64,000 bases of DNA from a virus: positions 1-64,000 of the IMG/VR virus record IMGVR_UViG_3300007512_000015. The stretch is one strand, 5' to 3'. The notes below the pieces were generated by a model. It did no database searches. It worked only from the letters and a program-made list of their open reading frames with translations, and had not been told where the DNA came from. Position numbers and translations under genes: made by a program. Of the stretch, positions 21,586 through 52,686 are shown one piece after another (position 1 is the first letter of the stretch; each line of letters begins with the position of its first letter).

Positions 21586-21633
21586 AAAGCCTCCAGAAGC
21601 AATAAAGCCCAGACGGCACTCAACCATCCGGGC

Positions 21634-33800: not shown

Positions 33801-34673
33801 CTACCGAGTGATGGTCAGTCGGGCCAAACCACGGGGGTTGTAGGCACCAAGACCCAGGTTCTCGAAGCAGGAGAAGCCGATGGTGCGAGCCTTCGGATCG
33901 TCTGCGGAAAGAACGGTCAGTTCGGTACGGACGGGGATACGTCCAAACATCTCTGGCTCGCAGCAAACATACACCGTGCCCACGGGGACAAGGCGGCTGA
34001 CGATGACCTGTGCGCCCCAGAGGGTGCCCATAAGGCCGGTCTTCAGCAGTTCGCGCTGCGTTTCGATGTCCAAGATGTCCCGGCCAAACTTACGCAGGTC
34101 AGCGTAGTCGCGAGCGTTCATGAACACGCGAGCAACCCGGAGGTCGTGGCGCTCGATGAGCGAGAAGGCGTCAGCAAGGACGGCTCCGCTAATCGGTGCA
34201 ACAACGGGGGTGTCGGGGTTCGTACCACCAGCGATGCTGTCGAAACCAGTGGTTGCGATAGCGTCAAGGACGGCGAACACGCGCTCATCTTCAGCAGCCT
34301 GAATCTGGGCACGGGCGAGATCCTGTGCCCGCTCAATGAGGTCGAAACGACGCTCCTTGATCTGGGTCAGGGGGATCTCCGGGTTGGACGCGATCTCGAA
34401 CAAAGGAAAGATGACGCGGCGAGGCTTGGTGATGGCAAGAATGTTCTCACCTTCTTCACCGACCACATATGCCGTAACATCAGGATCTTTGTCGTAAATC
34501 GGCAGGGCACCGTCGGGCAACTGCTCGACAAGGAAGGTCTTACGACCCACTGCCATGTAGTCGCGACGAAGCCGCAGGGGTTGAGTCATTGATGCAGCGA
34601 GCTTGGCACGTCCCTGGGGAGTACCGATGTAGTCGCTGATCAGCTTCTGCTTCACAGAGTTTGCAACTGACAT
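33801..34673 (-). CDS. Major capsid protein
   Basis: 290 residues. Begins MSVANSVKQKLISDYIGTPQ, then QPLRLRRDYMAVGRKTFLVE, DGALPIYDKDPDVTAYVVGE and a long helix-rich E/P region (ERRFDLIERAQDLARAQIQA, AEDERVFAVLDAIATTG). The C-terminal part has LWGAQVIVSRLVPVGTVYVC and GRIPVRTELTVLSADD. This is the pattern of HK97-fold capsid proteins of myoviruses with a protease/scaffold module, which is exactly what follows upstream on the strand. Thousands of copies would form the head. Strong terminator after the gene. Confidence 0.85.
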   Translation of the reverse strand: MSVANSVKQKLISDYIGTPQGRAKLAASMTQPLRLRRDYMAVGRKTFLVEQLPDGALPIYDKDPDVTAYVVGEEGENILAITKPRRVIFPLFEIASNPEIPLTQIKERRFDLIERAQDLARAQIQAAEDERVFAVLDAIATTGFDSIAGGTNPDTPVVAPISGAVLADAFSLIERHDLRVARVFMNARDYADLRKFGRDILDIETQRELLKTGLMGTLWGAQVIVSRLVPVGTVYVCCEPEMFGRIPVRTELTVLSADDPKARTIGFSCFENLGLGAYNPRGLARLTITR

Positions 34674-36908: not shown

Positions 36909-38321
36909 TCAGGTAACGGATTGAGTGGTTTTGCTCGCCCGTCGGGAAAGCAGATAGCCGACTCGGATTGCTACCCGAACTTCGGCAGAGGACATCTTGC
37001 GACCCGTAGCGGAGCCAAGAGCAGCAAGAAAGGACTTCAAGTCAGGATGGCTCGAAGGGGTTCCCGCAGCCAAAACCGCACGGTAAATGTCCCGTGCAAC
37101 TTTGACTCCGTAGGAATCATTGACCGCAGCAACCCCGTCAACGAGGGCTACGTCAGAGGACGCCACCCGCACAACCGTCTGAATAGCAGTCTTGTACTGG
37201 TGGAGCTTGCCCTCTTTTTGAAGGGTGTCGTTGGGCCAAGTGGACGGAGGACCTGGGTTATCCAGTTGCTCTTCCACGTTGGAATCAGCCATGTCTTTCT
37301 GAAGGCGCTCTTGAACGCGCTTCTTCACCATGTCGTAGATTTGGTCTTCGATGTCAGTGAAAGGCTTCCCTGAATCAGCGGGTGCCTCTTCGGCGGGCTT
37401 TTCATCATCCTCGCCAAAACCAAAGGCGCGTACCGTAGAGGCTGCCTTCGCAATCGCGTCCTGCGACCATGCCTCTGGGGGCGCGGAGAGGACCTGTTCC
37501 AACTTCTGGGTCTGGGAGGTGGCCTCCGCAGGACTCAAAATGTTCCGCATGACAGCGCCGGAAAAGGCCGGGGTCGCTACCCAAGACGCCTCGATAAACG
37601 TCACGCCACCCGTCTCATCGTAGTCGGGATGGCCGCAAAGCTCTGCAATCACGCGCTTCTTGCCGCCGCCATCCATGAAAGTGTTGAGCTTCGCATACCG
37701 AATATGGTCGCAAAGTTCAGTCTCATCAGCGGCAACATGACCGCACTTCGTGCAGATGGTGAAATCCGTGGTGCAGCCCATAGAGAGCGTTGCAATCTTG
37801 CCGGATTCAATGTCCTGGACAAGTGCTGCGTGCTTTCGGTCAGTGGCAACGAGGATGTCGATATAAACCGAAGAGCCAACGTCACGGGCTACGGCATCAA
37901 TGATGCGGCCCTTCGACTGCTCCTCAATCTGGACATGCTCCTGGAAGTTGTGGGAGCCGATGAAAGTCCGGTAAGACTTCAGCAAGACATCCCGGCTCCA
38001 GGAATCCCCGTTGTTGTTCACCATCGCGGATGATTCAGGGGAGATGTAGTAGTCGGCGTACTTACGGTTGATGGTACGGCTGCCGATCTTGACGTTCCCG
38101 AGTTTCGCGCCCGCTACCTTCTCTACCTCAACCGATCCCACAATAGTGCAGTGGGTAAGGAGGTACTGGTCCGGGCTAAAAGGAGTGCCGAGAATCGTGG
38201 TGGCTTGCGCGGAGAGGTCGCGGGTGGGGGTAGAAGACGCAGTACGCTGCACACCGCCCCAAGAGGCAGCATTGACACGAGGATGGAGGACCATCGCCTT
38301 GGCGTACTTGGCAAAAGCCAT
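36909..38321 (-). CDS. Prohead maturation protease
   Basis: 470 residues. NRKYADYYISPESSAMVNNN and the FIGSHNFQEH segment (catalytic His candidate H124) are followed by LVATDRKHAALVQDIESG and ATLSMGCTTDF (nucleophile candidate S181). A zinc-knuckle-like CxCxxC pattern follows at C184, C191, C194 and C205/H207 (CTKCGHVAADETELCDHI), a signature of a widespread phage prohead protease family. The C-terminal 200 residues are helical, with a PADSGKPFTDIEDQIYDMV segment, and may act as a scaffold-like extension. It lies directly before the scaffold gene. Confidence 0.85.
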   Translation of the reverse strand: MAFAKYAKAMVLHPRVNAASWGGVQRTASSTPTRDLSAQATTILGTPFSPDQYLLTHCTIVGSVEVEKVAGAKLGNVKIGSRTINRKYADYYISPESSAMVNNNGDSWSRDVLLKSYRTFIGSHNFQEHVQIEEQSKGRIIDAVARDVGSSVYIDILVATDRKHAALVQDIESGKIATLSMGCTTDFTICTKCGHVAADETELCDHIRYAKLNTFMDGGGKKRVIAELCGHPDYDETGGVTFIEASWVATPAFSGAVMRNILSPAEATSQTQKLEQVLSAPPEAWSQDAIAKAASTVRAFGFGEDDEKPAEEAPADSGKPFTDIEDQIYDMVKKRVQERLQKDMADSNVEEQLDNPGPPSTWPNDTLQKEGKLHQYKTAIQTVVRVASSDVALVDGVAAVNDSYGVKVARDIYRAVLAAGTPSSHPDLKSFLAALGSATGRKMSSAEVRVAIRVGYLLSRRASKTTQSVT

Positions 38322-38323
38322 GT

Positions 38324-38890
38324 CTAACCCTCCTCTCCGACTTCAAGTTCAGCGTTATCCCCAAGGAAGTTCACAATATCGAGTTCCTTGATGAGAAACA
38401 TGCACCCAGGACATCCCATCAGGCGCTCGCTGGCACCGTCCCTACGCTTGTAGATTGCTCGCTTGAGGGAGCCTTCCTTGCACTTGGGACAACCGATAGC
38501 CCCACCGTCTTTTTCAGAGCGGGTCAACTTGTACTTACGATCCGTGGATGCCCAGTACAAAGCTCTACGCACGGCTGCTTCAGCAACTCTTTCAGCAGAC
38601 GCGCTCTTACCGTAAGGGCCTCCTGGAACCGAAACCGTAGGCTGGCCTCCCGGAGCAGAGTCTGTGGTAGGCGGGGCTGCGTTACCGTTGCCGTCGTAAC
38701 GCTGGAGGTCTTCCGCAGGGAACCGCTTGTTGCCGTTAGGCATTTCAACATCAATCATGCCAATAGCAGGCCAGACCGCTGTTACGCGGCCTGCTTGAGA
38801 CTCGTAGGCTCCGAAGATTCCCACGAGATCACCGACAGAGAACTCTGTGGCTCTCTCTTGCCAGTTGACGTTGTTAGTGCCGGTCTTCAA
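38324..38890 (-). CDS. Small protein with SH3-like start and C-terminal zinc ribbon
   Basis: 188 residues, TTG start with GGAG 6 bases upstream. FSVGDLVGIFGAYESQAGRV and AVWPAIGMIDVEMPNGNKRF form an SH3/KOW-like barrel. The C-terminus has CPKCKEGSLKRAIYKRRDGA and GCPGCMF, two CxxC pairs of a zinc ribbon. It sits next to the prohead protease; the combination suggests a head-assembly or DNA-contacting role. Confidence 0.6.
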   Translation of the reverse strand: MKTGTNNVNWQERATEFSVGDLVGIFGAYESQAGRVTAVWPAIGMIDVEMPNGNKRFPAEDLQRYDGNGNAAPPTTDSAPGGQPTVSVPGGPYGKSASAERVAEAAVRRALYWASTDRKYKLTRSEKDGGAIGCPKCKEGSLKRAIYKRRDGASERLMGCPGCMFLIKELDIVNFLGDNAELEVGEEG

Positions 38891-38899
38891 CGGAGACTC

Positions 38900-39961
38900 C
38901 TACTCGGAAAAGAAATCGAAACCGTGGACTTCGGTGGCAGCCTTGCCCATCTCGGACTCGAACTGGTCGAGTTCCCGCAGGAACATGGAGGTGTCCTTCT
39001 CCATCTTGCGGCCCACGCCCTTGAAAAGACGAGTGGCCTGCTCTGCCATACCGACAATGCGCTTCAGGCCACCAACGAGCCATTCGCGGAAGCGAACCAG
39101 CTTGTCGAGGACACCAGCGTTCTTGTCAGCAACGGACGCGGTACGCATCTCAAGCTCGAATCCCTTGAAGGCGACAGCCATAGTCTTCTTTTCTTCGCGC
39201 AGTGCGTTCTCCAGTTCAGGAAGGCGCTGACGAATACTCTCACCGTACTCCTCGGCAAGAGCGGCCAGGAGTTCATCCCGGACCTTCTGCGGAGTGCGCC
39301 TGCGAGCAACGACTGCCAACCTTGCCTGGGCGTCCACCAGAGCGGTCTTGCGCTCGATGATGACGTTGCCCTGTGCCGAAAGATTCTCCTTGTAGTCTTT
39401 CTTGAGAACCTCAACGGCGGCCTTCATCTCCTTGTCGAGATCCTTCTTGCGCGACAAAAGGCCGCTGGTGGCGGCCTCAAGCTCTGCTTCAAGCATCTCG
39501 ATTTCGGTGGAGAGTTCGTCTAAACGGCGAACCTGATCCGTAAAGCCCCGGAATCCTTGGACGTTGATGGTGGGCATCGCGGCTTCCATCACGCGGTCTG
39601 CCTCTTCCATCAGAGAAGCCAGCTTGTCGGCGGCTTCTTCGGCGTCTGCCATCTCGGTAAGCTCGTGGAACTTCTCTTGGGTGAAGTGTTCATCGATCTG
39701 TGCATTGGGAGGATCATCAACCAAAGGACCCGGAACCTCTTCGCCAATCTCATCGGCGTTGAAGTCAGCTTGCTTCAAAGGGAAGTTGGCCGCCGCTTGC
39801 TTCTCCACCGCATCGCTAACCAAATCGCAGCGGAAGGCGAAGTCGGTGGCAATGTTCGAGGGGAGGCCCAAAAGGGCTGCATTGTGTTGAACGGCGGTAG
39901 CGATACGGTCAAGGGTCTCGGTGAAGGCCCGTGCCCCGCTCCGGGTAAGGTTGTCGGCCAT
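38900..39961 (-). CDS. Long coiled-coil virion protein
   Basis: 353 residues from MADNLTRSGARAFTETLDRI; this start has TGGAG 7 bases upstream. Residues about 100-280 are a heptad-rich helix (LEAATSGLLSRKKDLDKEMK, ERKTALVDAQARLAVVARRR). C-terminal helical part LVGGLKRIVGMAEQATRLFK. Likely a structural or internal head protein. It has a late-type promoter at 40046 and a 13-bp tandem repeat in its leader. Confidence 0.55.
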   Translation of the reverse strand: MADNLTRSGARAFTETLDRIATAVQHNAALLGLPSNIATDFAFRCDLVSDAVEKQAAANFPLKQADFNADEIGEEVPGPLVDDPPNAQIDEHFTQEKFHELTEMADAEEAADKLASLMEEADRVMEAAMPTINVQGFRGFTDQVRRLDELSTEIEMLEAELEAATSGLLSRKKDLDKEMKAAVEVLKKDYKENLSAQGNVIIERKTALVDAQARLAVVARRRTPQKVRDELLAALAEEYGESIRQRLPELENALREEKKTMAVAFKGFELEMRTASVADKNAGVLDKLVRFREWLVGGLKRIVGMAEQATRLFKGVGRKMEKDTSMFLRELDQFESEMGKAATEVHGFDFFSE

Positions 39962-39973
39962 GACGATTCTCCA

Positions 39974-40006
39974 GTAAGGGGGTCCTGTAAGGGGGTCCTG
40001 TAAGGA
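39974..40006. repeat. 13-bp tandem repeat in the leader of the coiled-coil gene
   Basis: GTAAGGGGGTCCT is present twice in tandem (39974-39986 and 39987-39999) and a partial third copy follows. On the minus strand it reads ACAGGACCCCCTT and lies between the late-type promoter and the ribosome site of the gene at 38900. Confidence 0.6.
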
Positions 40007-40045
40007 CAGGGATTCCACGAGCACAAGTCTCGCTCATAGGGTGAA

Positions 40046-40063
40046 GGTATAGGAACGTTACCG
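40046..40063 (-). promoter_or_regulatory. Late-promoter-like element overlapping a stop codon
   Basis: Reads CGGTAA-CGTTCC-TATACC on the minus strand; CGG-TAA is the last codon and stop of the 1713-residue gene. It lies 84 bases before the ATG at 39961. Confidence 0.5.
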
Positions 40064-43000
40064 CGCATCTAACGGGACAGAGTTTCCCGTTGGAAGTTTG
40101 GAAGTGTCCCACGGCTGCAAATCATAACGATCAAGGGCTGTCTTTTCCGTCGAAGATTCAGGCTCGTCGCCTTCAACGATGGCTTGCCATTTATCCTTTC
40201 TCGAATCAGGGAAGATGGCATCAAGAAGGGCGGCGAAGAATCCCTTCTTCCGCTCTGCACCCTCCTCCTTCTTTTCTTCTGTGTCTTCCGACCCTGCACC
40301 CTCGGACTCGGCAGAAGTATCGGCGTCTTCGTCATCCTGCTTCGCCCCAGAACCCTGCGCCTCGTCAATAGCGGATTGGTCCAAGAACTGACCTTTCGCA
40401 TCCCGAAGGGCAGACGTCATCCGAGACTTGTCCTTCTTCCGGCGCTCCTTCAAGCTCTGCTTCACGTCGCCCGTAGTAGGCTCATCCTTTTGATGATCCT
40501 CGCGAGTCGCCTCTTCCACCACCGTGATTTCATCCGTCAAATAATCAGCAATGATTGTGCGAAGAAACTGCTTATCCTCCATCCCCAAATCAGCGGATTC
40601 ATCACTCAACAACTCCGCGATAGGGAAGATGGGGTCATCCTCCTCGACCAAACTTCCCCAGTCTTCGTCAAGCACGTCAGTGAGGGCGGCCCGGATGCCC
40701 TCCTGCGCCTCTGGAGTGGAAAGGTCGCCCCCAACCGGTGCAAACAAGGCCCCATCGGGACCTGCTGCCCCAGCCTTATCGAGTGCTTTGACGAGAAGCT
40801 GCATCGTAGGTCCGACGCCAGTAGCCTCTTCCCCGTCATGCAAAGCTGACGCGGCAAGCAGTCCTGAAACAACACCTTGAAGCTCCACCTTCGCGGCAGA
40901 CCCGTCAGGAAGACCCTCCAACTGCTGGGCGAGTGCTTCACGGGAATGGGCGCGTTCCTCGGGGCTTGCCTCCTTGAAGCGTTCAAAGGCATTCGCAGCA
41001 TGAGTTGCGCTGCGCTTTTTCGACTTCGCGAGGTCGTCGCCCGTCACGACACCCTGGCTATCGGAGACTGGGTTGGCGGGGTCTATGAGGGAAGGATTGA
41101 ACAGAACCTTCGAGGCATACTCGAATAGCGCCAGCACCTCTCCCATCACGCCTGGGTTTCCGTCCTTGATGGAGGCCAGAACCGCATCAAGGCTTTCGGC
41201 AAGGGTGAGCAACTCTTTACGGGCGGCAGGGTCGCCTCGAACCGCAGAGTCCCGCGCCTTGGCGGTTTCCTGCGCCTTCTCATATGATTCAAGGAATGTT
41301 GCCCGGTCATCACCCTTCAAGCCTTGAAGGGCTGATTCAACCTTCTCGGACCCGTCACCTCCAAAAGACTGGGTAAGGAGGACGAGGTTGTTGGACGCCG
41401 AATCCATCGCCGCTTGGCTCTTGATCTGGTCCTTGCGTTCCTTGGCCGCTGCTGGGCTGAAAGGGTCCACCCCTTCCGCAGCTTGCTCCATCATCATGTC
41501 CTGGACGTCTTCTTCAGTGATCGTGGTGTTGGGGTATTCGTCCTGAATCTTCCCAAACTCGGTCCCTGCGCCCTCTGCCAAGAGATCCATTTGCTCATCA
41601 GAGGAAAGTTCTTCCCAGGTATCCTCGGACGCACCCCCATCCTCGCCGTCCTCACCTATTGACCGGATCGTGTGGTCGTCCTTATTGGCCCCTGGGTGCT
41701 TGGATTTATACGTCTTCCACTCTTGCTCCGTAAACTCCTCGGCCTTCCTGTACCGAAAAGCTACACGCCGAGCGGCCATCGAGGCGGCGATGTCCTTGAA
41801 GTTGTGGGACGTATCCTTCCGATCTTGCTCTTTATCGGGATCCCTTTCGGAATCCGAATCCTCGACATGACGGCGTTCCAGGTCCACCCGAGGCGGCTTT
41901 TTCTTGGGGGACTTACGCACAAGTCGCTGGGCCTCTTCCTCTTCACGCTCTGCTTCAGACTTCGTGGCTTGCTTCAGGAGAAGCGTATGAGCCACACGCG
42001 AGAACCGAACCCCTCGGGTAGCTTCGCGCTCGCTCCTGTATTTCTGGACCCGGAAACCATCTCCAATGCTGGCGTACCAACTACCGCCCATCTTCCAGAT
42101 GTAGCCCTCGGGAACCAACCCTCCTGGAAGATCCGCTGGGCCGTCCAGCTTTTGCTCACCCCACTCAAAGATCGCCTTGACCACCGTGGACTTACTGACG
42201 ATCCCCATGAGCCACGAACGAAAGCCTGCATCCCGACCCAGAGAGGCAGCCTTGGCCAAATCATCAATAACAGTCCCGTCCTTCATGTAGAAGTCCTCCA
42301 GCCCTGGCACGAGGTACTGGGACCGGAGCGTGGATGCCTGATGCCCCACCGCCTCTGCAACCGCCTCCAATGCTTCCTTGAACTCTGCCTTTAGGATCTT
42401 GTCTCGGTCTTTTCGACCTCGGGGAAGGCTCTCGCCCTTCTTGCGAACATCCTTCAACCGAACACGCATCTCCTCATTGGCATGTAGCCCCCGAAGATCC
42501 TTGGCCGTGATGTCAAACGGCTTGAGGTAACCGTTGACGTGCCGCGCTCGAATCTGACAATCATCGCCGTCGCACAGAATGCGCTCGTCACCCTCTTTTC
42601 CGTCCACTGCCGCTTTGAGAACCTCAATGATTTGAGGGTCCGTCACAACCTTCTTCTGCTTCACCCCGCTCTTGCCAACGTACTCAAAGGTGGCTTTCTT
42701 GTCCTTCAGGTCCAGGTGGCTGACCCGCAAGGTCGTGATTCCAAAATGGCCACGATCATCAGCGGATTTCTCGTTACCCACGCGCTCATAAGTCTTGTCG
42801 AGCAACGCCACCGCCAAAGCCGTAAGCCTCGTCTCCGGGTCGTCTGACACCATGTCCTCCGAAACCTGACCCCTCAAATCAGAAAGGGATGCCTTCAACC
42901 CCTCCAATCTCTTGGCCTTTTCTTTATGGCGTTGGGCTACCTGCCGAGGGCCGTACTCGTAAACAGTGGTGGTCCCGCTGCCGTCTGCTTTGGGCACCTC

Positions 43001-45199
43001 TTTCTTGCTCTTGTACTTGGCTACGACGCGACGGGGGCTTGCCTCCTTGCCCTCCTCCACCTCTCGGGGGCGCACCCGGAACAGCTTCAACTCTTTGGGC
43101 TGCTTGCGGCCAGTTGGATTAGGCACCTGTTCGACGGTGATGATCACGTCACCCTTCTCGTTGGTGCTGAACCCATCAATGATCCCCCGCTTGTTCTTAT
43201 ACTTCCCGTACCAGATAGGATCGCCCTTGTTGACGGTGAACGTCTTGGCCCAGCGATGCCTCTGTAGGGCGTGTGAAGCCCTCCTCTCCATGATCCGCGC
43301 CACGCGAGGACTCCAAGCCTCGGGAACATCCATGAAGTCAGCCATATGGTCAGCAACTTCAACGCCGTAGAGGATGTCACTGGGCCAGTGGTAGCCTGCT
43401 TGCGCCCGACCCCACGCAATCTGGTCAACCAAATCAAAGTATTCAGCCGCATGTTCGGGGTCCAGGCGGCTTGATGCCTCTCCCAAGAGGAACGCTTGGA
43501 TGGCATGACCGCTTGGGTACGAAGGGGAGTGGGCCGTTTCTGAAGCAAGTGCCTCGAAGGGCTGTCCGATAGCGTCCCCTACCTGATATGGACGTGGGCG
43601 ATTGAAGTGCCACTTCAGCTTGGCGACGTGGGTTTTCGCCTGTTTGACCATCTCTCGCATCCACCTCTTATCGACTCGGACACCATGATCGCGCCACAGA
43701 CGATCAAAGAGATGGAGAATCTCCCCATCAGACTCCTTGATGAACTCTTCAGCTTCCGGGCGCTGTTCTTCAGCGAGTTCGCGTAGGTCTTGAAGCTCCT
43801 CAAGGGTTTCCTCCTGGTCGGGGGGCGGGATCAGGTGAAAATCCTCGAACGCGAGGGGAAATATGGGAGTGGGGGCTTCCATAGTTGCGCGGTCGGCATC
43901 CGAAGGGGTGCCGTAAACCAAAGCAGAGCTTGCCCGTCGGGGCAGTTGACGAGGCAGTTCCCGACGAACCCGCTGAACGAGCCTCGATGAAGAAGCCGCC
44001 AAAGAAGGATCTTCGAGGAGAAGGTCCCGCACAACCCTATTCAAGACGGGTGAAAAATCCCGCATTTCGTTTTGTCGATAGCCGTGCTCTTGCGCCAAAG
44101 CCAGGGTAGCCCCTCCCAAGGCACTGCCCGTCTGGCGCAACATACCCAAAAAATCCAAAGCGGCGTCACGATCCATAACAGACGTTACTTCCCGAAAACG
44201 CTTCTGCTGCGCTGCATCAAGGAAAGAGATTGGAGCGCCTACAGGGATGCCCACGTCCATCAGATCAAGCATGTAAGCAACACCCTTCTTTCTGGCGTGG
44301 CTCTCCATAAAGGACCGAAAGGGCTTGTTCTCCAGCATTATCTCCTTGATGACTGCGTTCACGCCAAGGCGATCCATGACATCAAGGGCTTTCTTGTATT
44401 GGGGGTTATCCAACACAATCTTCTGAAGAATGCTCTGGGTCTTGGAAGGGATGCGTTTGAGTCCCTTGGCCTGCCGGATAGCTGCTGCCTTCACGTCGGG
44501 CGGCAGCTTCATGCCGTACTTGAAGGCGAACTTGATGGTGCGGATGATCCGGGTGGGGTCCTGCGCGAATGTCTCGTCGGGGTCGCCAGGGCAGCGCATC
44601 TCGCGGTTTTTTAGATCCTTTAGACCACACCCCGTGAGGTCAATGATTTCGGCCTTGTCAGGGCCATTGGCGAGCGACAGCAGCGTCCACATCAATGTAT
44701 TGAACGTGAACTCGCGGCGAGAAATGTCGATCTCCATCGTGGTGGGTTCGACCCGTTCCGGCTTGTGTCCGGTGTACTCACCTGTCTGGGGGTCAACCGC
44801 GTACTCCTCCAAGCGAGCGTTGACGATCTCGATCTCCTCCCCCTCCATCTGATGGCCGTCAAGGCTCCAAGGACCCTCCACAGTGATATGAGAAACCATC
44901 AGGCTATCGGTCCACACCTTGGTAGGGGCGGGGATTGCACGGGCTACCTGCTGCGCCACCCAAGCGGCGTCACGATTCCCGCGCAGTGCGAGAGAATCCA
45001 CCACCATGTCTATGTCCTTGATGGGCTTCTCAAGCAGGAAGTTCCTGACGGCACCGCCGACGACGTAGACGTGCTGCGCTACCCCGGCCTTTCGGGTGAC
45101 TCGGGAGAGCCACTTCATCAAGGCCACCGATGCCTCTGTGGACATCTCGGCCTGCTTCAGTGTCGCTACCGCTTCAGGATTTGGGTGACGAGGAGCCAC
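40058..45199 (-). CDS. Trifunctional fusion: CCA-adding/poly(A) polymerase head, PAP2-type phosphatase, type IB topoisomerase
   Basis: 1713 residues, GTG start with GGGAG 6 bases upstream. Residues 40-280 are a nucleotidyltransferase head (VVGGAVRNFLL, D62-I-D64) followed by FTFNTLMWTLLSLANGPDKA and RIIRTIKFAFKYGMKLPPDV, as in tRNA CCA-adding enzymes. Residues about 475-640 match PAP2 phosphatases: K529-x6-R536-P, PSGH with S563 and H565, and R598-x5-H604-x3-D608. Residues about 745-1000 match poxvirus-like topoisomerase IB: R806 (RVGNE), K843 (GKSG), R903-x2-H906, Y962. The C-terminal 600 residues hold an ARRVAFRYRKAEEF motif (about 1143), HPGANKDDH, and helical Ala-rich sequence. It sits among virion genes, so it may be carried in the particle. 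Confidence 0.85.
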   Translation of the reverse strand: MAPRHPNPEAVATLKQAEMSTEASVALMKWLSRVTRKAGVAQHVYVVGGAVRNFLLEKPIKDIDMVVDSLALRGNRDAAWVAQQVARAIPAPTKVWTDSLMVSHITVEGPWSLDGHQMEGEEIEIVNARLEEYAVDPQTGEYTGHKPERVEPTTMEIDISRREFTFNTLMWTLLSLANGPDKAEIIDLTGCGLKDLKNREMRCPGDPDETFAQDPTRIIRTIKFAFKYGMKLPPDVKAAAIRQAKGLKRIPSKTQSILQKIVLDNPQYKKALDVMDRLGVNAVIKEIMLENKPFRSFMESHARKKGVAYMLDLMDVGIPVGAPISFLDAAQQKRFREVTSVMDRDAALDFLGMLRQTGSALGGATLALAQEHGYRQNEMRDFSPVLNRVVRDLLLEDPSLAASSSRLVQRVRRELPRQLPRRASSALVYGTPSDADRATMEAPTPIFPLAFEDFHLIPPPDQEETLEELQDLRELAEEQRPEAEEFIKESDGEILHLFDRLWRDHGVRVDKRWMREMVKQAKTHVAKLKWHFNRPRPYQVGDAIGQPFEALASETAHSPSYPSGHAIQAFLLGEASSRLDPEHAAEYFDLVDQIAWGRAQAGYHWPSDILYGVEVADHMADFMDVPEAWSPRVARIMERRASHALQRHRWAKTFTVNKGDPIWYGKYKNKRGIIDGFSTNEKGDVIITVEQVPNPTGRKQPKELKLFRVRPREVEEGKEASPRRVVAKYKSKKEVPKADGSGTTTVYEYGPRQVAQRHKEKAKRLEGLKASLSDLRGQVSEDMVSDDPETRLTALAVALLDKTYERVGNEKSADDRGHFGITTLRVSHLDLKDKKATFEYVGKSGVKQKKVVTDPQIIEVLKAAVDGKEGDERILCDGDDCQIRARHVNGYLKPFDITAKDLRGLHANEEMRVRLKDVRKKGESLPRGRKDRDKILKAEFKEALEAVAEAVGHQASTLRSQYLVPGLEDFYMKDGTVIDDLAKAASLGRDAGFRSWLMGIVSKSTVVKAIFEWGEQKLDGPADLPGGLVPEGYIWKMGGSWYASIGDGFRVQKYRSEREATRGVRFSRVAHTLLLKQATKSEAEREEEEAQRLVRKSPKKKPPRVDLERRHVEDSDSERDPDKEQDRKDTSHNFKDIAASMAARRVAFRYRKAEEFTEQEWKTYKSKHPGANKDDHTIRSIGEDGEDGGASEDTWEELSSDEQMDLLAEGAGTEFGKIQDEYPNTTITEEDVQDMMMEQAAEGVDPFSPAAAKERKDQIKSQAAMDSASNNLVLLTQSFGGDGSEKVESALQGLKGDDRATFLESYEKAQETAKARDSAVRGDPAARKELLTLAESLDAVLASIKDGNPGVMGEVLALFEYASKVLFNPSLIDPANPVSDSQGVVTGDDLAKSKKRSATHAANAFERFKEASPEERAHSREALAQQLEGLPDGSAAKVELQGVVSGLLAASALHDGEEATGVGPTMQLLVKALDKAGAAGPDGALFAPVGGDLSTPEAQEGIRAALTDVLDEDWGSLVEEDDPIFPIAELLSDESADLGMEDKQFLRTIIADYLTDEITVVEEATREDHQKDEPTTGDVKQSLKERRKKDKSRMTSALRDAKGQFLDQSAIDEAQGSGAKQDDEDADTSAESEGAGSEDTEEKKEEGAERKKGFFAALLDAIFPDSRKDKWQAIVEGDEPESSTEKTALDRYDLQPWDTSKLPTGNSVPLDAR

Positions 45200-45202
45200 A
45201 GG

Positions 45203-47365
45203 TCACTCCCACAGGAAGCCACCCAAGACGATTTCACCAATCTTCTCGTTTTCGGGGAGCGGGGCCAGTTCTACCTCGTCCTCGAAATCCGCACTGCGAA
45301 GGTTGTATTCATCCGGGTCATAGGTAGCGCCGAACAGGGAAGCAATACCTTCCGCATCCGTCTGGTCTGCCCCGGTGATGTTGGCCTTCTTGATGGACTT
45401 GATGTCTCCGGGAAGGTCCGAACGCTCCAGAAGCACCTTGTTGTAGGTGCTGCACTTCCGCGTGCCGCAGGAAAGTGTGCAAACTCGGGTACACCCTTGG
45501 CACCGGGAACTGGCCAGGACAGCAGGTAGCTGGTTGGATCGATGACGAAGGGCACCTGTCTCGCAACCTTTCACCCCTGTGGGAGCCATGTAGGCTTCGG
45601 AGTCAACGTAGAGAAATCCAGCAGCGCCCTCGTGGGTGTCGCGAATACTCTGAATCAATCCCGAAGCAGACTTGAGGATCCGGTTCGAGAAACGATGACG
45701 AAGCAGTTCAGTAAGCTCACTTCCGGCAGACCCTTGGGACATATGACGAGAGGCCCACTTGAGGACACCCTTGATCTCCGAAACAGAAACATCACCATCA
45801 GAAGCAGCCTTGGCGAGCGCCGCGTCCTTATCAGAAAGCTCCACAGCCTCCCGCACCTCGGGGGCACGTTCGTAAACATGACCATCATAGGAAGCGGCCT
45901 TGCTCTCTTCTTCGAGGGCACCGGTCTTTTCCAATGTTGGACGCAGCCGACGCACTGCTTCAGCAGCAAACTTCTGCGGAATCACCTTGTTGATAAAGGA
46001 CTTGAGGTAAGAACCGCGTGCGCCCTGCTCGATCTTCTCAATGACCTTTGCGATGCGCTGGTCCAGATCATCGGAGTTTCGGAAAGCGACGATTTCTCGG
46101 AGCCGTGCTTCAGAAGCCTCTTTGGCGTGGTCCTTACGGACAAGACGGAGATGCTGGCGCTTCTGGGCCGCCTCAACGGCGGTGTTAGGGGCACCCGTGA
46201 AACCAGAGGTCCCGTTACGACGAGCGTTCACCGCATCGAGAGCACGGGCCAACTTCTGGTTCGGCGTCAGATCGGCAGCCTGAATCTGCTCAACCAAGTC
46301 AGAGTCAATCATATTGCTCTGCTTCCAGAGTTGAAGCCGTCGATTCAACACGGCGTCTGTCACCTGGACTTCCGTGGGAGTGTTGTCGGCGGCCTTCAGG
46401 CTTGCCGCAGCCTCTTCAGAAGAAACCGTATCGCATACAGCCTTGTAACGAGGAAGACGCTCACCGCGTGCAACCGGCAACGAGGTCGGTGCAAGAAAGG
46501 CGGCCCGGAGGGCATCCTTTGCTGGAACGTCCGTAGCTACCCGATGCCCCGTAGCAAGCAACAAAGGCTTGTAGTGAGACAGGGCCTTGCTCCAAGGAAC
46601 CTCAAGGACGGCCTTCTTGCCCGTTACAGTGCAGCGACCGTTCTGGATATGAGTAGAACCAAAGTCCTGGCCCGAGACAAGGATGTACTCGGCTCCCTTG
46701 GCGGCCTTCAGAATCTCGTCGCGGTACTTCCCCTTTTCATAAGAGGGGTATGCGGCGGCACGAACAAAGACCTTTCCTGCAAGACCATGCTCGCTGCGGA
46801 TAATGGAAAGCCCCTTCTCGATTCGATCTGCATCCACGCCAGCGGCGATTCGGGACTGTTCGATGATCAGGCTGATGTCCTCACCAGCCGCAGAGCGCCG
46901 CATGGCCGTAACCAGAATGTCCGACAAGTCGCGTTCATTCATGGGGAGGCGCGTGTCAGGGGCCGACGCCTTGGCGTGGGCAAGATCCGTAGAGAACACC
47001 TGGATACCGTTAGTGCGGCGATCAACGCCCCAGGCTTCCTCAAGTTCCGGGATTCCCAAATCAACCGGGTTCTGGGGGAGACGCTCGGGGTCTTGTTCTG
47101 CATCGGCAAGCCAAGACAGGTCGGCCAACTCGGCCTCCTTCATCATCTCCTGGACGCCCATGTCTGATTCAGCAACGCGCTCCAGCCCAGTAGGCAACGC
47201 GGGAGGAGGCATCAACTCGGGATCCAGGACGCCTTCAAGGACGCCTTGGTTGTAGTGCATGTCCTCAAACCCAGGCATACCGTAGTTGGAGCCAAGGGTA
47301 GGGGTGAGGAGGTCAGCCGGAAGGTGACTCTCCCCCAAAACATCGAGGGGCTTGTCGCTACTCAC
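45203..47365 (-). CDS. Large virion-associated protein with cysteine cluster
   Basis: 720 residues, GTG start; the end nearly touches the start of the fusion gene (3 bases apart). No known domain by eye. Features: an alpha/beta region at about 200-290 (VFVRAAAYPSYEKGKYRDEI, YILVSGQDFGSTHIQ), long helical stretches at 360-560, and near 640-665 a Cys cluster SSRCQGCTRVCTLSCGTRKC that may hold metal or an Fe-S cluster. The C-terminus is acidic and ends GEIVLGGFLWE. Probably translated together with the fusion protein. Function unknown. Confidence 0.55.
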   Translation of the reverse strand: MSSDKPLDVLGESHLPADLLTPTLGSNYGMPGFEDMHYNQGVLEGVLDPELMPPPALPTGLERVAESDMGVQEMMKEAELADLSWLADAEQDPERLPQNPVDLGIPELEEAWGVDRRTNGIQVFSTDLAHAKASAPDTRLPMNERDLSDILVTAMRRSAAGEDISLIIEQSRIAAGVDADRIEKGLSIIRSEHGLAGKVFVRAAAYPSYEKGKYRDEILKAAKGAEYILVSGQDFGSTHIQNGRCTVTGKKAVLEVPWSKALSHYKPLLLATGHRVATDVPAKDALRAAFLAPTSLPVARGERLPRYKAVCDTVSSEEAAASLKAADNTPTEVQVTDAVLNRRLQLWKQSNMIDSDLVEQIQAADLTPNQKLARALDAVNARRNGTSGFTGAPNTAVEAAQKRQHLRLVRKDHAKEASEARLREIVAFRNSDDLDQRIAKVIEKIEQGARGSYLKSFINKVIPQKFAAEAVRRLRPTLEKTGALEEESKAASYDGHVYERAPEVREAVELSDKDAALAKAASDGDVSVSEIKGVLKWASRHMSQGSAGSELTELLRHRFSNRILKSASGLIQSIRDTHEGAAGFLYVDSEAYMAPTGVKGCETGALRHRSNQLPAVLASSRCQGCTRVCTLSCGTRKCSTYNKVLLERSDLPGDIKSIKKANITGADQTDAEGIASLFGATYDPDEYNLRSADFEDEVELAPLPENEKIGEIVLGGFLWE

Positions 47366-48608
47366 CGTTCACCTCCATAAACCGTGCAAGCACACGGGCG
47401 GTGCTTCCGGGGATTCCTGCCATGCGCTGACGCCTCTCGATTTCTCGAAGAAGGTCCTCCTCGTCGTCCGAGACTGCTTTCACAAGTGCAGGCATGTACT
47501 TCTTGATATGCTTTTCAATAAGGACCGCGTCATCGACAGGGTTGCCGACCCACCTGTGCCGAACCAAACCGGGCGAACGCTTGTCGTTATACCCGTCGAT
47601 AATGAACTGAATGTTCGTGCCATCGGGCATGAATCGAAACTCTGCGGTGGCCCCCTCGTCCAAGACGCCCCAGTTGAAAAGCACGACCTTTCCCGGCTCT
47701 GAAACCAACTCGTAACCAGAAGGGACTCGAACACGACGGCTCTCAACCGCCTTGCCAAGAGTCCAGCGGTCATCTCCGCGCATGTAGTCGATGCCTGCCC
47801 ATGCAGCCGTCTTGCGGCGAACCGTCTGGGCTGCGCGTGGCCTTGGAGTGTCCGAACCAATGCCCTTCACAAACCCCTCCAGGCTTCGGAGGGCAGTCTT
47901 GACTGCTTTGAACTCCCGGCTTCGGGAAGATCCGGTGGGGAGGTCTTTTCCAAGCTCAATGAGAAGATCCGTCATCGCATACGCTTTATCGAGCGGGGTG
48001 TCCCCCCGATAGGACAAAGTACCAGCGGTCTTGCCGAACTCGTCTTCCTCTTCCTCGTCGGCCCAGCCGGTGGGGTCCTCTCGGATTTCTTCGGCTTCCT
48101 CAACGATCTCCCGAACCTCATCCCGATCACGCGGATCAAGAGTGTCCTCGGCAGGATCCCAGTGAGGGGCTGCCATCTCGTCATAGATGGTGTCGGTGAA
48201 AGCAGACAGGGCCTCGGAACAGTTCATCAACTGCCGACGCATCTCGGAAACTTTCTGGATGTACCCCTTACCGCCAAGGCTGCCGTCAGGGCTAACGTCG
48301 CGGCTCTTGATCTTGAGAAAGCGGTCGTGAGCAGACGAAACATGGCCCAGAGCCATAAGCGCAGAGCGCATCGTCGTTGCCAGGGGCTTCAGGTACTTGG
48401 GATCAAACACGAAGTCGGACGTGATTTGGCGCTCGCTGGGACCAGGGCTTCCCCAACCCCACTCGTTCTTGTCACCGCCACGGTCCTTGATGAAGCGAAC
48501 CTCACCAGCAGTGCGGGACATGGAAGCCGTCTTCTGGCCGTCAGCAGACGCACCAAGCCGCTGCTTGCGGGTATGGGCTTTCGCGATGCGTGCTGGGTCA
48601 GGGCGCAT
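47358..48608 (-). CDS. Predicted virion protein with RIAKAH start
   Basis: 416 residues from MRPDPARIAKAHTRKQRLGA, with AGGAG 9 bases upstream. The N-terminal motif is a variant of RVAARY. Residues 60-230 are helical and acidic; YAMTDLLIELGKDLPTGSSR resembles the LPKGS motif of the gene at 32870. Residues about 260-350 form a beta domain (DDRWTLGKAVESRRVRVPSG, EFRFMPDGTNIQFIIDGYND). Ends with TARVLARFMEVNGE, again motif-like. The stop overlaps the next start. Probably structural. Confidence 0.55.
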   Translation of the reverse strand: MRPDPARIAKAHTRKQRLGASADGQKTASMSRTAGEVRFIKDRGGDKNEWGWGSPGPSERQITSDFVFDPKYLKPLATTMRSALMALGHVSSAHDRFLKIKSRDVSPDGSLGGKGYIQKVSEMRRQLMNCSEALSAFTDTIYDEMAAPHWDPAEDTLDPRDRDEVREIVEEAEEIREDPTGWADEEEEDEFGKTAGTLSYRGDTPLDKAYAMTDLLIELGKDLPTGSSRSREFKAVKTALRSLEGFVKGIGSDTPRPRAAQTVRRKTAAWAGIDYMRGDDRWTLGKAVESRRVRVPSGYELVSEPGKVVLFNWGVLDEGATAEFRFMPDGTNIQFIIDGYNDKRSPGLVRHRWVGNPVDDAVLIEKHIKKYMPALVKAVSDDEEDLLREIERRQRMAGIPGSTARVLARFMEVNGE

Positions 48609-48634
48609 GGGCACACTCTCCTACGAAACAGAAC

Positions 48635-48652
48635 AGAATAGGCGCTCTACCG
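48635..48652 (-). promoter_or_regulatory. Late-promoter-like element
   Basis: Reads CGGTAG-AGCGCC-TATTCT on the minus strand, 26 bases before the ATG at 48608. It would drive three large genes, including the 1713-residue fusion. Confidence 0.55.
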
Positions 48653-48660
48653 TACAAGGC

Positions 48661-49662
48661 TCATCCCTTGAGGGGTTGCCCTTCGTCATCGAAGAGGCGT
48701 TCAATAAGGAAACCCTCACCGTCGGCGGTCACGGACCACAGATCATTGGTGCTCTTGTGGACCAGATGCCCGTCCGCAGCTTTGAGGAAATCCGTGAGGT
48801 TGCCCAAGTTCGACACGCGGATCGTCTTGGCCGCCTTGCCGAGCGACTTCAGTTCCTTCTGCATCTCGGCCATCTGCCCGATCTCTTTCTCGATCTTCTG
48901 CACCACGGCCATTTGCTTGTCAGTAGGGGCGAAACCCTTGTCAGCCATCTGCTTCAGCAAGCCCTTCAAGAACTTGCTGTCAGGCTTCTTCTTGACCAGG
49001 GCCTTGATCTTCTCGAAGTCAGCCTTGAGATCAGAGGCGGCTTTGTGTTTCTTCAGCGCAGATACAGCATCCCCCACGGAGCCAATGCTGATGTCCATTT
49101 TGATTTTCTTGGGGCGTTTATCCGAAGTCCAAACATCAATGGTGTTCTTGTCCCCGTGTTTGACAAACATGACCATGCGACCATCCCCGAGATCCCACAT
49201 CTGCTGCTTCTTGTTGAAGAATGCCTTGGGGAACTTCTTTGCAACCGCCTTGCCCAGTTCCCCCGTATCCATAGAGGCAAAATCCTTTGCGGTCTTGCCC
49301 TGTTTCGCCAATCGCAAGTGTTCCGCATGAATGGCCCGAAACTTACCATCATCCCACTGCACGAAGACTTTGCCGTCATGATTGGTGATGTCACCGTTGG
49401 CTGATTTGACGTTCACAACTTCACCGATAGCACCCTTTGGAGGCGGGTTTTCGTAAGTCATGTACGCGCCAAGGCCGCCTGTAAAGGACACCTTGGTTCC
49501 TGCTTCAGTGCTCAGAGGAAGCGCATTGGCCGCCCTGGAAACATCCGTGAGATCCCGCACCGAATCAAAACTCTGGCCTGACACCTTCTCGGAAAGGTGT
49601 CGGTCAATGGCGCTCGGGATTGTCCCGGTGAAGATGCCTGTATTGTCCCAAAAGTTGCTCAT
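48661..49662 (-). CDS. Large-phage conserved protein with SH3-like domain
   Basis: 333 residues. An SH3/KOW-like domain at about 65-120 (PPPKGAIGEVVNVKSANGDI, KVFVQWDDGKFRAIHAEHLR). Then a Lys-rich helical part. The C-terminus, NLGNLTDFLKAADGHLVHKS followed by DLWSVTADGEGFLIERLFDD, is a motif I recall in structural proteins of large phages (L..DFL....LVHKS..DLW.....G..VIERLFD). No catalytic motif. Likely virion. Confidence 0.6.
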   Translation of the reverse strand: MSNFWDNTGIFTGTIPSAIDRHLSEKVSGQSFDSVRDLTDVSRAANALPLSTEAGTKVSFTGGLGAYMTYENPPPKGAIGEVVNVKSANGDITNHDGKVFVQWDDGKFRAIHAEHLRLAKQGKTAKDFASMDTGELGKAVAKKFPKAFFNKKQQMWDLGDGRMVMFVKHGDKNTIDVWTSDKRPKKIKMDISIGSVGDAVSALKKHKAASDLKADFEKIKALVKKKPDSKFLKGLLKQMADKGFAPTDKQMAVVQKIEKEIGQMAEMQKELKSLGKAAKTIRVSNLGNLTDFLKAADGHLVHKSTNDLWSVTADGEGFLIERLFDDEGQPLKG

Positions 49663-49671
49663 GGCTTACCT

Positions 49672-51243
49672 CTAAATATCTCGAAGCACGACGTAGTTGA
49701 CGGTCGCGGTTATCGGTGTCGCGGGGCCTGCTACCTCGGCCAAATCAAATGATGCAGCAAGTTTGTTCTGAACCCCCACGACGCCTCCCCCTGGCTGTTC
49801 TGAAACAACGGTGTAGAGCGCGTCAGGCTGGGGGATGTCGAAAGTGATTGTCTCGGAAGCCGAGGCAACAAACGCCTGGGATCCAATGATCCGGGACTCT
49901 GCGAGGGTAGGGGTCCCCCCAGAAATCGCCAGGGTTCCTCGTTCCGTATTGCGGAACGTAGCTGCTGTAGTAGTCCCAAGAGTTGTAGCCCCGCCCACCA
50001 CACAGTTGTTGAGAGCCAAGGTTTGGTCACCATCCTGGGCCAGCACGCTGATGTCGGGGCAGTTGGAAATAGTGAGGGAACCCAGACCAACCAGATTGCA
50101 AGAGAGGTCATGGATACGGCCACAGTTCAAAATCTGATACTCGGAGGTCGTGTCGTTGGGTTGATCCAGGGTGTTGTCGTAAGCGAGTTGGAAATCATTT
50201 GTCCACTCGACACCTTCCAACAAAACCTGGGCCGTATTGGATGCCTGAAACACGGACGTAGCAGCCGAACCTCGGAAGGTTCCACCGCGCACTCGAATAT
50301 GGTTCGCGGTATCTGCGTTGACCTGGAAGCACCCCGCTCCTGAAGCAACCAGGACACAATCCTCAATGGTCAAAGCACCGTTTGCCACAAGGTTCCCGGA
50401 GGAACCGCCTCCCGCCAGGGTTGCGCCAGAGGGAACCAAGTCCAACGGCACTGCTACGGATACCGCCAAAGTGATCGCGTTGCCCGTAACGCCTGCCGTT
50501 ACAGCGGTGAATGTCACCACGTTCAGAGCAGAGGTCGCGGTCACAACATCAGTGAAGCTGTTCGCGCTATCCATGACCGCTTCAGCAATCTCGGCAGCGA
50601 TGATGTCAGTGGTAGCGCCGTTGACCGAGAAATCATCGGAACCGGAGGTCCGGGTTCCAGAAACTCCTGTGAGAACCACGCCTCCCACAGTGATGGTGTC
50701 TCCTGCCGTAAGCGGTGCGTTGTCTACATCGACAGTCCCAGAGGCGAAAGTATCAGCCCCGAGAACATAGACGCAGGCATCTCCCGCATGGGTGTTCTCA
50801 ATCTCCAAGCCCTTGAGCAGCACGTTCTGCGGGGTCGAGGTTGATTCAGCCTTGATGGTCAGGGTGTGGGTCCCTGTAAGATTCACCAGCTTGGCCCCGC
50901 CAAGACCGACGATGTAAACGCCGTCCCGCGTAAGGGTCAAATCTTCCGTGTAGACCCCCGGCATCACCAGGACGAGGGAGGGCACCAAAGCAGTGGAAGA
51001 GGCAGGGATAGCATCCAACGCTGACTGGACCGTTGTATAAGCAGCGCCGTCACCGGCACGGCCCACGACGAAGACTCCCGTGATGTTACGGATTCCAACA
51101 AGATTCGGGAGCAGGACACCAGACGTGACCACCGCATCGACAAACTGCATGGCTCCGTCAGTGGAGTCACGGTCAATGGTGATGGTGTCTCCAGACCCAG
51201 GTTCAATCTGGAGAACATCTACAAGCCAAGGGGGTTGAGCCAT
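49672..51243 (-). CDS. Right-handed beta-helix virion protein with inserted Ig-like domain
   Basis: 523 residues. YTTVQSALDAIPASS, LVMPGVYTEDLTLTRDGVYI and VGLGGAKLVNLTGTHTLTI are the pectate-lyase-like helix entry, common in tailspikes. At about 165-285 a separate domain is inserted (TVDVDNAPLTAGDTITVGGV, AEIAEAVMDSANSFTDVVTA, TAGVTGNAITLAVS), close to repeats in the protein at 11729. The helix then resumes (LTIEDCVLVASGAGCFQVNA, LTISNCPDISVLAQDGDQTL). No clear acidic catalytic pair; likely structural/adhesive. Confidence 0.65.
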   Translation of the reverse strand: MAQPPWLVDVLQIEPGSGDTITIDRDSTDGAMQFVDAVVTSGVLLPNLVGIRNITGVFVVGRAGDGAAYTTVQSALDAIPASSTALVPSLVLVMPGVYTEDLTLTRDGVYIVGLGGAKLVNLTGTHTLTIKAESTSTPQNVLLKGLEIENTHAGDACVYVLGADTFASGTVDVDNAPLTAGDTITVGGVVLTGVSGTRTSGSDDFSVNGATTDIIAAEIAEAVMDSANSFTDVVTATSALNVVTFTAVTAGVTGNAITLAVSVAVPLDLVPSGATLAGGGSSGNLVANGALTIEDCVLVASGAGCFQVNADTANHIRVRGGTFRGSAATSVFQASNTAQVLLEGVEWTNDFQLAYDNTLDQPNDTTSEYQILNCGRIHDLSCNLVGLGSLTISNCPDISVLAQDGDQTLALNNCVVGGATTLGTTTAATFRNTERGTLAISGGTPTLAESRIIGSQAFVASASETITFDIPQPDALYTVVSEQPGGGVVGVQNKLAASFDLAEVAGPATPITATVNYVVLRDI

Positions 51244-51251
51244 CTTCTACC

Positions 51252-51680
51252 TCACACGAACACGTCGAAGCCCACAGTGCCTGAAAAGTCGGCACCGGCT
51301 TGGACAGTAAAAGTTGTGGTCGTCTGGGCACTAATCCGCAACGGAACAAAGGCGTCACTGGAAAGCACGACGCGGTAGTGCGCGTCCGTCATGGCCTCTA
51401 CAAACGTGAAGGTTTCTTCGTGCGAATCAGTGAACGTGAGAGTGCCGTTCACTGCGGATGTAGCAGCCATTAGCGCCTCCACCTGTGAGATTGCGGAATG
51501 AATGTCGTCTTCAACGGATTTGGGGATACGGGAGTACGGACTTACCACCATGCCGTAAGCATTCTGGATGTCGCGCACTGAAAGGTTGCCTTGGGAGTCG
51601 GAAACGACCGTGAATAGGTACTGGTCCGAAGCAGACCCAGACGTGTAACTAAACTCCGAAAGAACCAATGCGGCAGCCAT
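51252..51680 (-). CDS. Small structural protein
   Basis: 142 residues from MAAALVLSEFSYTSGSASDQ. Beta-prone throughout; contains YLFTVVSDSQGNLSVRDIQN, a phage-like SxGNLxVRxIxxxYG motif, a helix EDDIHSAISQVEALMAATSA, and NGTLTFTDSHEETFTFVEAM. It lies one gene upstream of the beta-helix protein and probably belongs to the same virion part. Confidence 0.55.
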   Translation of the reverse strand: MAAALVLSEFSYTSGSASDQYLFTVVSDSQGNLSVRDIQNAYGMVVSPYSRIPKSVEDDIHSAISQVEALMAATSAVNGTLTFTDSHEETFTFVEAMTDAHYRVVLSSDAFVPLRISAQTTTTFTVQAGADFSGTVGFDVFV

Positions 51681-51688
51681 GATCCCCC

Positions 51689-52003
51689 CTACCAAACGCC
51701 AGTTGTTTCACAGCCCACCGCCTGAAGCCACTCGTCCAACTCGACAAGCCCTTCACGGTTAGCTGACCAAAGTTCAACATGATCAAACCCGGCTTTGACT
51801 CCGAGATCGCGAACAGGGTCTACAGATCCAACCTTGATCTTGCCATCACGGAAAGAACGGAGGAGTCCCGGAAGATTGCGAAGACCCTTGGGACCCATGT
51901 ACACGGTGATCCGGTACTCGGGGCGCACGTTGGCCTTGATCCATCTTCGCGCCAGCCGCTTCGCCATAGCCACGCGGCGGTGAGAAGGTTTTGACTTCGG
52001 CAT
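51689..52003 (-). CDS. Small basic conserved phage protein
   Basis: 104 residues. Arg/Lys-rich start (SHRRVAMAKRLARRWIKA), then RITVYMGPKGLRNLPGLLRS, FRDGKIKVGSVDPVRDLGVK and FDHVELWSANREGLVELDEW. The RNLPGLLRSFRDG..P..DLGV...FD..ELWS pattern is a conserved small phage protein of unknown role. The start repeats the RVA-type motif. First gene of the late block, with a late element at 52044. Confidence 0.6.
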   Translation of the reverse strand: MPKSKPSHRRVAMAKRLARRWIKANVRPEYRITVYMGPKGLRNLPGLLRSFRDGKIKVGSVDPVRDLGVKAGFDHVELWSANREGLVELDEWLQAVGCETTGVW

Positions 52004-52043
52004 AACTTGTCCTCCGAAGGAACGCGCCCTTCACGGGACATGC

Positions 52044-52061
52044 TCAATAAGAGGAACACCG
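52044..52061 (-). promoter_or_regulatory. Late-promoter-like element at the border of the late block
   Basis: Reads CGGTGT-TCCTCT-TATTGA on the minus strand, 40 bases before the ATG at 52003 and 3 bases after the stop of the sigma-like gene. It is the last copy found; none is seen from 52.1 to 64 kb. Confidence 0.45.
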
Positions 52062-52064
52062 AGA

Positions 52065-52679: not shown

Positions 52680-52686
52680 TCGCCAC

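Follow-up and report, generated by a model that had tools for sequence, protein, structure and literature searches.

A phage head-locus protein joining a topoisomerase IB to CCA-adding and PAP2 domains: a candidate new branch of the polyvalent proteins

Polyvalent proteins are multi-enzyme chains of phages and conjugative elements that combine unrelated activities; in phages their genes lie with the late virion genes, and injection has been proposed for them (Iyer et al. 2017; PMC5512222). In that description, CCA-adding and PAP2 domains go unmentioned, the word topoisomerase occurs once, in the reference list, Pol-beta domains are of a minimal type restricted to conjugative elements, and 2H domains are never seen with RNA ligases. 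Here, we describe a 1713-residue protein in which a predicted CCA-adding nucleotidyltransferase, a PAP2-type phosphatase and a topoisomerase IB are joined in a single chain. Its gene lies in a window of 64,000 nucleotides (positions 1 to 64,000) of the 100,895-base IMG/VR virus record IMGVR_UViG_3300007512_000015. An earlier note, made from the sequence of the window alone, had reported the three enzymes in one uninterrupted frame; Pfam finds all three, with complete catalytic sets. That description gave neither the strand, which is minus, nor a KOW-like module and the long C-terminal region. On balance, we consider that the protein probably belongs to a new polyvalent-protein branch. Carried in the particle and delivered with the DNA, it would mend damaged tRNA ends of the host and relax the phage genome on entry.

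A second relevant system is the RNA repair of jumbo phages, which comprises CCA-adding enzymes, Swiss-army-knife HAD phosphatases (HAD_SAK), 2H phosphoesterases and ATP-grasp ligases: 2H enzymes open cyclic phosphates, HAD phosphatases remove phosphates, ligases seal, and CCA enzymes restore 3' ends (PMC7824862). The enzyme classes are the same, but in jumbo phages they are mainly separate genes supplementing tRNAs, whereas the family of the window protein fuses them to a topoisomerase in the head locus, and no tRNA genes were found in the phage record of the window. Jumbo phages such as Lu11, PaBG, phiRSL1 and Motura also carry a distant topoisomerase I of the tyrosine-recombinase superfamily (PMC7824862), for which we saw no fusion described. 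The topoisomerase IB of poxvirus virions shares fold and catalytic residues with the window domain and is likewise the own topoisomerase IB of a large DNA virus, but it is a single-domain protein of an unrelated virus, with no RNA-repair fusion. It is carried in the virion core and aids early transcription.

The Pfam matches of the giant frame, PolyA_pol (residues 44-202), PAP2 (527-613) and Topoisom_I (756-957), all exceed the curated cut-offs and are therefore far beyond chance (E values in Table 1). GC content is lowest at codon position 2 in 17 of 17 blocks of 100 codons, indicating that the frame is coding along its whole length. An assembly artefact or frameshift joining separate genes, a concern raised in the earlier note, might be suspected from relative L052, in which the CCA region and the topoisomerase are adjoining separate open reading frames (ORFs). 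We reject it as extremely improbable: IMG/VR contig 3300007504_000097 has the frame letter for letter, contig 3300007770_000007 differs from it at one base (a single-nucleotide polymorphism), the codon bias is unbroken, and CCA-topoisomerase fusions also occur in L058, L079 and L087.

Residues 1 to 430 carry the motifs of class II CCA-adding enzymes, namely a GG...D-x-D head, RR-x-F-T-x-N and D-x-x-R, together with a helical neck. The D62-x-D64 site recognized previously is borne out, as D62, D64, R161, R162, D214 and R217 are invariant across the 18 CCA rows of the alignment, and the catalytic residues are all intact in ten relatives tested. Structure prediction, which the earlier note had recommended, gave a confident AlphaFold (AF2) model of residues 1 to 450 (mean pLDDT 86). 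Its highest-ranking PDB fold matches, led by one at E=1.5e-12, are without exception CCA-adding or tRNA nucleotidyltransferases. Entry 3aqm, of the bacterial poly(A)-polymerase type, ranks lower (3.6e-10), and since CCA-adding enzymes lead by both fold and profile, a poly(A) polymerase seems less likely than an enzyme of the class II CCA-adding type, for which CCA addition is predicted. TM-scores of about 0.4-0.5 to the PDB matches suggest that the body differs or is hinged. The neck and body region (residues 261-430) is also found in L012, L017, L021, L052, L053, L058 and others, with a PolyA_pol_RNAbd match in L021. In two relatives (L017:1623-4177 and L071:7977-11559), separate ORFs encode the head and the neck of the CCA enzyme, and the sequence between them may be an intron or a broken intein. 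In the 2806-residue fusion of L079 (L079:4428-12848), an in-frame intein with LAGLIDADG lies inside the CCA enzyme at residues ~730-1188 (Intein_splicing 3.7e-10).

The topoisomerase core aligns with the structures of variola, Deinococcus and eukaryotic topoisomerase I, and R806, K843, R903, H953 and Y962 are invariant in 29 relatives. Of the catalytic residues first proposed for it, R806, K843, R903 and Y962 hold. H906 does not: some relatives have R, G or A at this position, and the general-acid histidine is H953 (GH-QASTLRSQY962), which aligns with the GH of variola topoisomerase. Residues 717-985 thus form a topoisomerase IB core with predicted relaxation activity. The ~730 residues C-terminal to it have no Pfam match. 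They include the KPSPKKKPPRxDL module, which opens the gene after portal in phages that have the topoisomerase as a separate gene. The 288-kb phage genome G007 has, apart from its first topoisomerase IB locus, a second topoisomerase IB ORF of 482 aa (G007:201943-203391, L116).

As previously claimed, the PAP2 set is complete, and K529-x6-RP, PSGH565, R598, H604 and D608 (the last three spaced R598-x5-H604-x3-D608) are conserved in the alignment A9. The acid phosphatases 7f17 and 7f18 match the domain by profile (2.5e-20) and by fold (E=1e-5), the latter from a weak model (pLDDT 50, four sequences), so that the assignment rests mainly on sequence. Class A non-specific acid phosphatases are secreted single-domain proteins. 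The window domain shares the motifs and probably the all-alpha PAP2 fold of members of that class (7f17/7f18, PhoN, PhoC), but is an internal, cytosolic-type domain, and no transmembrane stretch or membrane helix was found when looked for within it. Among the fetched loci, a true PAP2 domain beside a topoisomerase is confined to the window and a single relative (L005/L014). Apparent PAP2 matches in L012, L017, L033 and L043 proved to be the KOW-like segment at the end of the query. This KYKNxRGI module, three strands in a low-confidence model, also occurs in L012, L017, L058 and L066, in other domain orders and contexts.

Topoisomerase IB had been called rare in tailed phages. The present one is no one-off: scanning with the topoisomerase core gave 39 viral loci, with topoisomerase ORFs of 272 to 2834 aa, and scanning with the CCA part gave 31, the two sets partly overlapping. 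About 40 distinct topoisomerase IB loci were fetched, nearly all from uncultured phages, to which the distant jumbo-phage enzymes (PMC7824862) may be added. Among 50,697 phage records searched by tblastn with the core, LR745208 alone was close (50.8%), and four jumbo records matched distantly, at 27.6%. LR745208 is an unannotated 485-kb genome with a HAD_SAK-topoisomerase of 508 aa directly after portal.

In the branch of the window, the topoisomerase gene belongs to the head-gene cluster and precedes that of the prohead protease. Fused to the topoisomerase or beside it are exchangeable enzymes for RNA ends, namely a CCA-adding enzyme, a Swiss-army-knife HAD phosphatase, a LigT/2H phosphoesterase or an Rnl-type RNA ligase, a pattern that the earlier note had not noticed. 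The fused or adjacent Pfam modules are HAD_SAK_1, 2_5_RNA_ligase2/LigT, RNA_ligase, InPase, GNAT, metallopeptidase-like, LPD1 (seen in sister topoisomerases) and DUF5661. In L021, for example, a 919-aa CCA, HAD_SAK and LigT protein directly precedes a 2130-aa topoisomerase and InPase protein. To avoid bias, the association was counted only in loci recruited by the topoisomerase plus the window, with near-duplicates removed, scoring CCA, HAD_SAK, LigT or RNA ligase modules within the fetched locus. Such a module accompanies 12 of 13 head-locus topoisomerases, the remaining one (L005/L014) having PAP2, and none of the 16 in other contexts (0/16), that is, in a terminase-topoisomerase-portal order or with no head gene detected within 8 kb. 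Because these 16 form one tree group, split at 96/95 support, 12/13 versus 0/16 is a contrast between lineages and not 29 independent events.

Besides the phage of the window, three others have CCA enzyme and topoisomerase in a single frame: L058 (2094 aa), L079 (2806 aa) and L087 (2086 aa), the last also bearing a tRNA-ligase-type phosphodiesterase and GNAT. These fusions are scattered over the topoisomerase tree, which requires two or more changes when strongly supported branches are counted and four under parsimony. A fortuitous joining of housekeeping enzymes that are common in large phages (CCA enzymes, phosphatases and topoisomerases) by stop-codon deletion, with no joint role, would be in keeping with CCA-adding enzymes being single genes in many phages and with the fluid gene borders of these loci. 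It is nevertheless rather improbable, as CCA and topoisomerase are co-located in 14 head-locus phages (some recruited by the CCA query), in one frame in four and on separate tree branches, and as the partners are repeatedly RNA-end enzymes, not random genes.

Like described polyvalent proteins, which have 2-15 disparate domains in one chain, the giant protein combines three enzymes and is encoded near virion genes. Its location among virion genes, as the earlier note had it, is confirmed by the nearby genes for head maturation protease and major head protein (Table 1). InPase, 2H/LigT phosphoesterase, GNAT and metallopeptidase domains are shared between polyvalent proteins and the relatives of the window protein, and LPD1 with sister topoisomerases; these domains are found in the topoisomerase relatives, not in the window protein itself. 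What agrees with the polyvalent concept is the type of locus, the set of domains that occur together there, and the links to LPD1 and InPase. In contrast to the described members, the window family has a topoisomerase IB hub joined to RNA-end enzymes. A literature search for topoisomerase IB, phage and tRNA nucleotidyltransferase together found none, most subscription papers and bioRxiv preprints being outside its reach. Consistent with the earlier remark that no protein of such arrangement is described, none was found in the annotated phage records and literature searched. The kind is known, and the branch with a topoisomerase hub and RNA-end modules appears to be undescribed in the searchable literature.

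According to the reading that we favour, the protein would be made late, packaged in the particle and set free in the cell when the DNA enters, in line with the delivery suggested in the earlier note. The CCA-adding enzyme would regrow the CCA tails of host tRNAs trimmed by host defence or decay, host tRNAs being the likely substrate because the record has no tRNA genes of its own. Because the PAP2 phosphatase takes the place at which relatives have the RNA-repair HAD phosphatase, it would probably strip terminal phosphates from RNA ends or clear phosphorylated nucleotides. The topoisomerase IB may relax the incoming genome in a poxvirus-like manner, aiding early transcription and replication of linear DNA, and anchoring in the particle is probably the task of the tail module and C-terminal region. 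No RNA ligase, LigT or HAD_SAK was found elsewhere in the record, with the HAD_SAK search lacking a positive control that responded; an RNA_ligase match at 4085-4471 is actually an NAD-dependent DNA ligase gene. As only CCA and phosphatase domains are present, the enzyme would restore host tRNA 3' ends rather than reseal cleaved tRNAs.

Alternatively, the protein could act late in the infected cell, in head assembly and DNA packaging, and remain undelivered, its topoisomerase relieving concatemer torsion at the terminase and the other domains being passengers. The topoisomerase gene of L015, L018 and L027 indeed overlaps the terminase gene by four bases and lies between terminase and portal. 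We consider this unlikely, as it leaves unexplained both the RNA-end enzymes at 12 of 13 head-locus topoisomerases and the intact CCA catalytic residues in ten relatives. In L015, L018, L027, L030 and L037, the topoisomerase IB is a stand-alone gene for ~350 aa that overlaps or abuts terminase and precedes portal, and the KPSPKxKPPR module begins the gene after portal.

A recurring linear motif bears on how the protein might be handled. The pattern R(V/I)(A/V)(A/S)(R/K)(Y/W/F/H) occurs 70 times in the 798 predicted ORFs of these loci versus 0.5 in shuffles, an enrichment to which the sequence shared at the beginning of topoisomerase modules contributes. A scan across all 297 kb of relative G001 gave 20 copies of the strict motif, in unrelated proteins and often near termini or between domains, and 26 copies of a looser pattern versus 3.5 expected. 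Besides the copy before the topoisomerase (Table 1), the window has copies in the genes at 19777-21627 (aa 22) and 32241-32870 (aa 8), and others lie in the G001 pieces L091-L105. A longer form, (P/A)S(P/A)xRVA(A/S)R(Y/F/W), is strongly enriched in these phages where proteins end or domains meet. Searching the literature for the peptide RVAARYL with phage gave no paper, within the same limits of access to subscription papers and preprints. The RVAxRY-type motif may be a cargo mark for packaging or a processing site, and we offer it as a lead only.

The giant protein could also be a polyprotein from which the head maturation protease or another protease frees the CCA enzyme, phosphatase and topoisomerase, possibly at RVAxRY segments. 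This possibility, which would be compatible with delivery, is doubtful but deserves more weight than exclusively late action. A protease gene lies shortly downstream in head loci read far enough, gene borders shift freely between domains in relatives, and the segment, RVA(A/S)(R/K)(Y/W/F/H), is enriched at domain borders and protein ends. However, the motif also lies at the extreme N- and C-termini of single-domain proteins, where cutting releases nothing, and it is unlike the xE sites at which prohead proteases usually cleave.

Several points weigh against a packaged and delivered repair protein. The 0/16 group is one clade, so the association holds few independent events, and some topoisomerases of the same family have other partners and lie away from the head locus. 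The link of PAP2 to RNA ends is weak, given its restriction to two loci; its structure model has low confidence. The earlier note had placed the gene under a late-type promoter; a scan for sigma-70-like sites gave none on the minus strand from 38000 to 54800 and, overall, fewer than chance, though sigma-like and antiterminator-like genes lie just upstream. With no RNA ligase known in the record, resealing of cleaved tRNAs by the phage alone would not be possible. Domains, catalytic residues, head-locus position and co-occurrence with RNA-end enzymes are observed directly; packaging, delivery, activities, substrates and a role in counter-defence are what we infer.

Cas12a3, described in January 2026, removes the CCA tails of tRNAs, and its authors give the means of phage resistance as unknown (PMC12851939). 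Phages that rely on host tRNAs are vulnerable to tRNA-cutting defences, against which repair may start too late if the enzyme has to be translated first; an enzyme that arrived with the DNA would avoid this delay. A packaged CCA-adding enzyme would be a candidate answer to such tail-cleaving immunity, the meeting of this phage with that defence being conjectural. More speculatively, and as a whole rather unlikely, many uncultured large phages might carry a preformed RNA-repair kit on a topoisomerase IB hub, with the CCA module rebuilding tRNA tails removed by Cas12a3-like nucleases in the first minutes of infection, ahead of phage translation, and the RVAxRY-type and KPSPKxKPPR segments perhaps serving as cargo tags. 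The family would extend the polyvalent proteins by three domain types, topoisomerase IB, CCA-adding and PAP2, and its linear motif is a candidate signal for the recognition of cargo proteins in large phages.

Table 1. Position of the giant gene, its parts and its neighbours in the window
Feature	Coordinates	Strand	Remarks
Whole ORF, 1713 aa	40058..45199	minus	GTG start at 45199, SD-like GGGAG just 5' of the start; stop at 40058
Class II CCA-adding nucleotidyltransferase head, aa 1-260	44420..45199	minus	G48-G49, D62-x-D64, RR161-162, D214-x2-R217; Pfam PolyA_pol 2.8e-14
Helical neck/body of CCA enzyme, aa 261-430	43910..44419	minus	AF2 model; common to relatives
Soluble PAP2/class A acid phosphatase-like domain, aa ~441-640	43280..43879	minus	Pfam 1e-8; full K-x6-RP/PSGH/R-x5-H-x3-D set
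KYKNxRGI beta module, KOW-like, aa 646-716	43052..43264	minus	Between PAP2 and topoisomerase; in relatives
RVVAKY copy of the (S/A)xxRVA(A/S)R(Y/F/W) motif	43013..43030	minus	Domain boundary before topoisomerase
Topoisomerase IB catalytic core, aa 717-985	42245..43051	minus	Pfam 4.2e-29; R806, K843, R903, H953, Y962
Insertion between topoisomerase and tail, aa 986-1066	42002..42244	minus	In L076, weakly in L087
KPSPKKKPPRxDL tail module, aa 1067-1146	41762..42001	minus	C-terminal to topoisomerase
C-terminal region, aa 1147-1713	40061..41761	minus	Related to separate ORFs of L005/L019 and C-terminus of L021
Two conserved genes (188 aa, 374 aa)	38324..40024	minus	Between giant gene and protease
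Head maturation protease	36909..38321	minus	PHROG 1.2e-14; downstream of giant gene, syntenic in relatives
Major head protein	33801..34673	minus	PHROG 1.8e-52
Four conserved upstream genes (720, 418, 333, 523 aa)	45203..51243	minus	Same order in L019, L021/L054, L052

The gene order of relatives is portal, CCA/phosphatase/LigT genes, topoisomerase, 374-aa and 188-aa genes, protease, 440-aa and 249-aa genes and head protein, the 374-aa and 188-aa genes being syntenic in L005, L006, L012, L052-L054 and others. Beyond the four conserved upstream genes of the window lie sigma-like factor, antiterminator-like and clamp-loader genes. Terminase and portal precede the locus in most relatives, unlike in the phage of the window, where they are found on the plus strand (G000 82046-86933), ~31-35 kb away from the other head genes. 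A related locus, L086 (RFZO01000018.1), is located in a 22-kb contig binned with an Actinomycetota metagenome-assembled genome, a possible hint at the host or a mis-binning. Additionally, intein-like insertions with C...HN/SN-C borders interrupt the portal or head maturation protease of several relatives (L062:1147-4614; L053:15157-17155; L079:14521-16771; L087:15397-18330).

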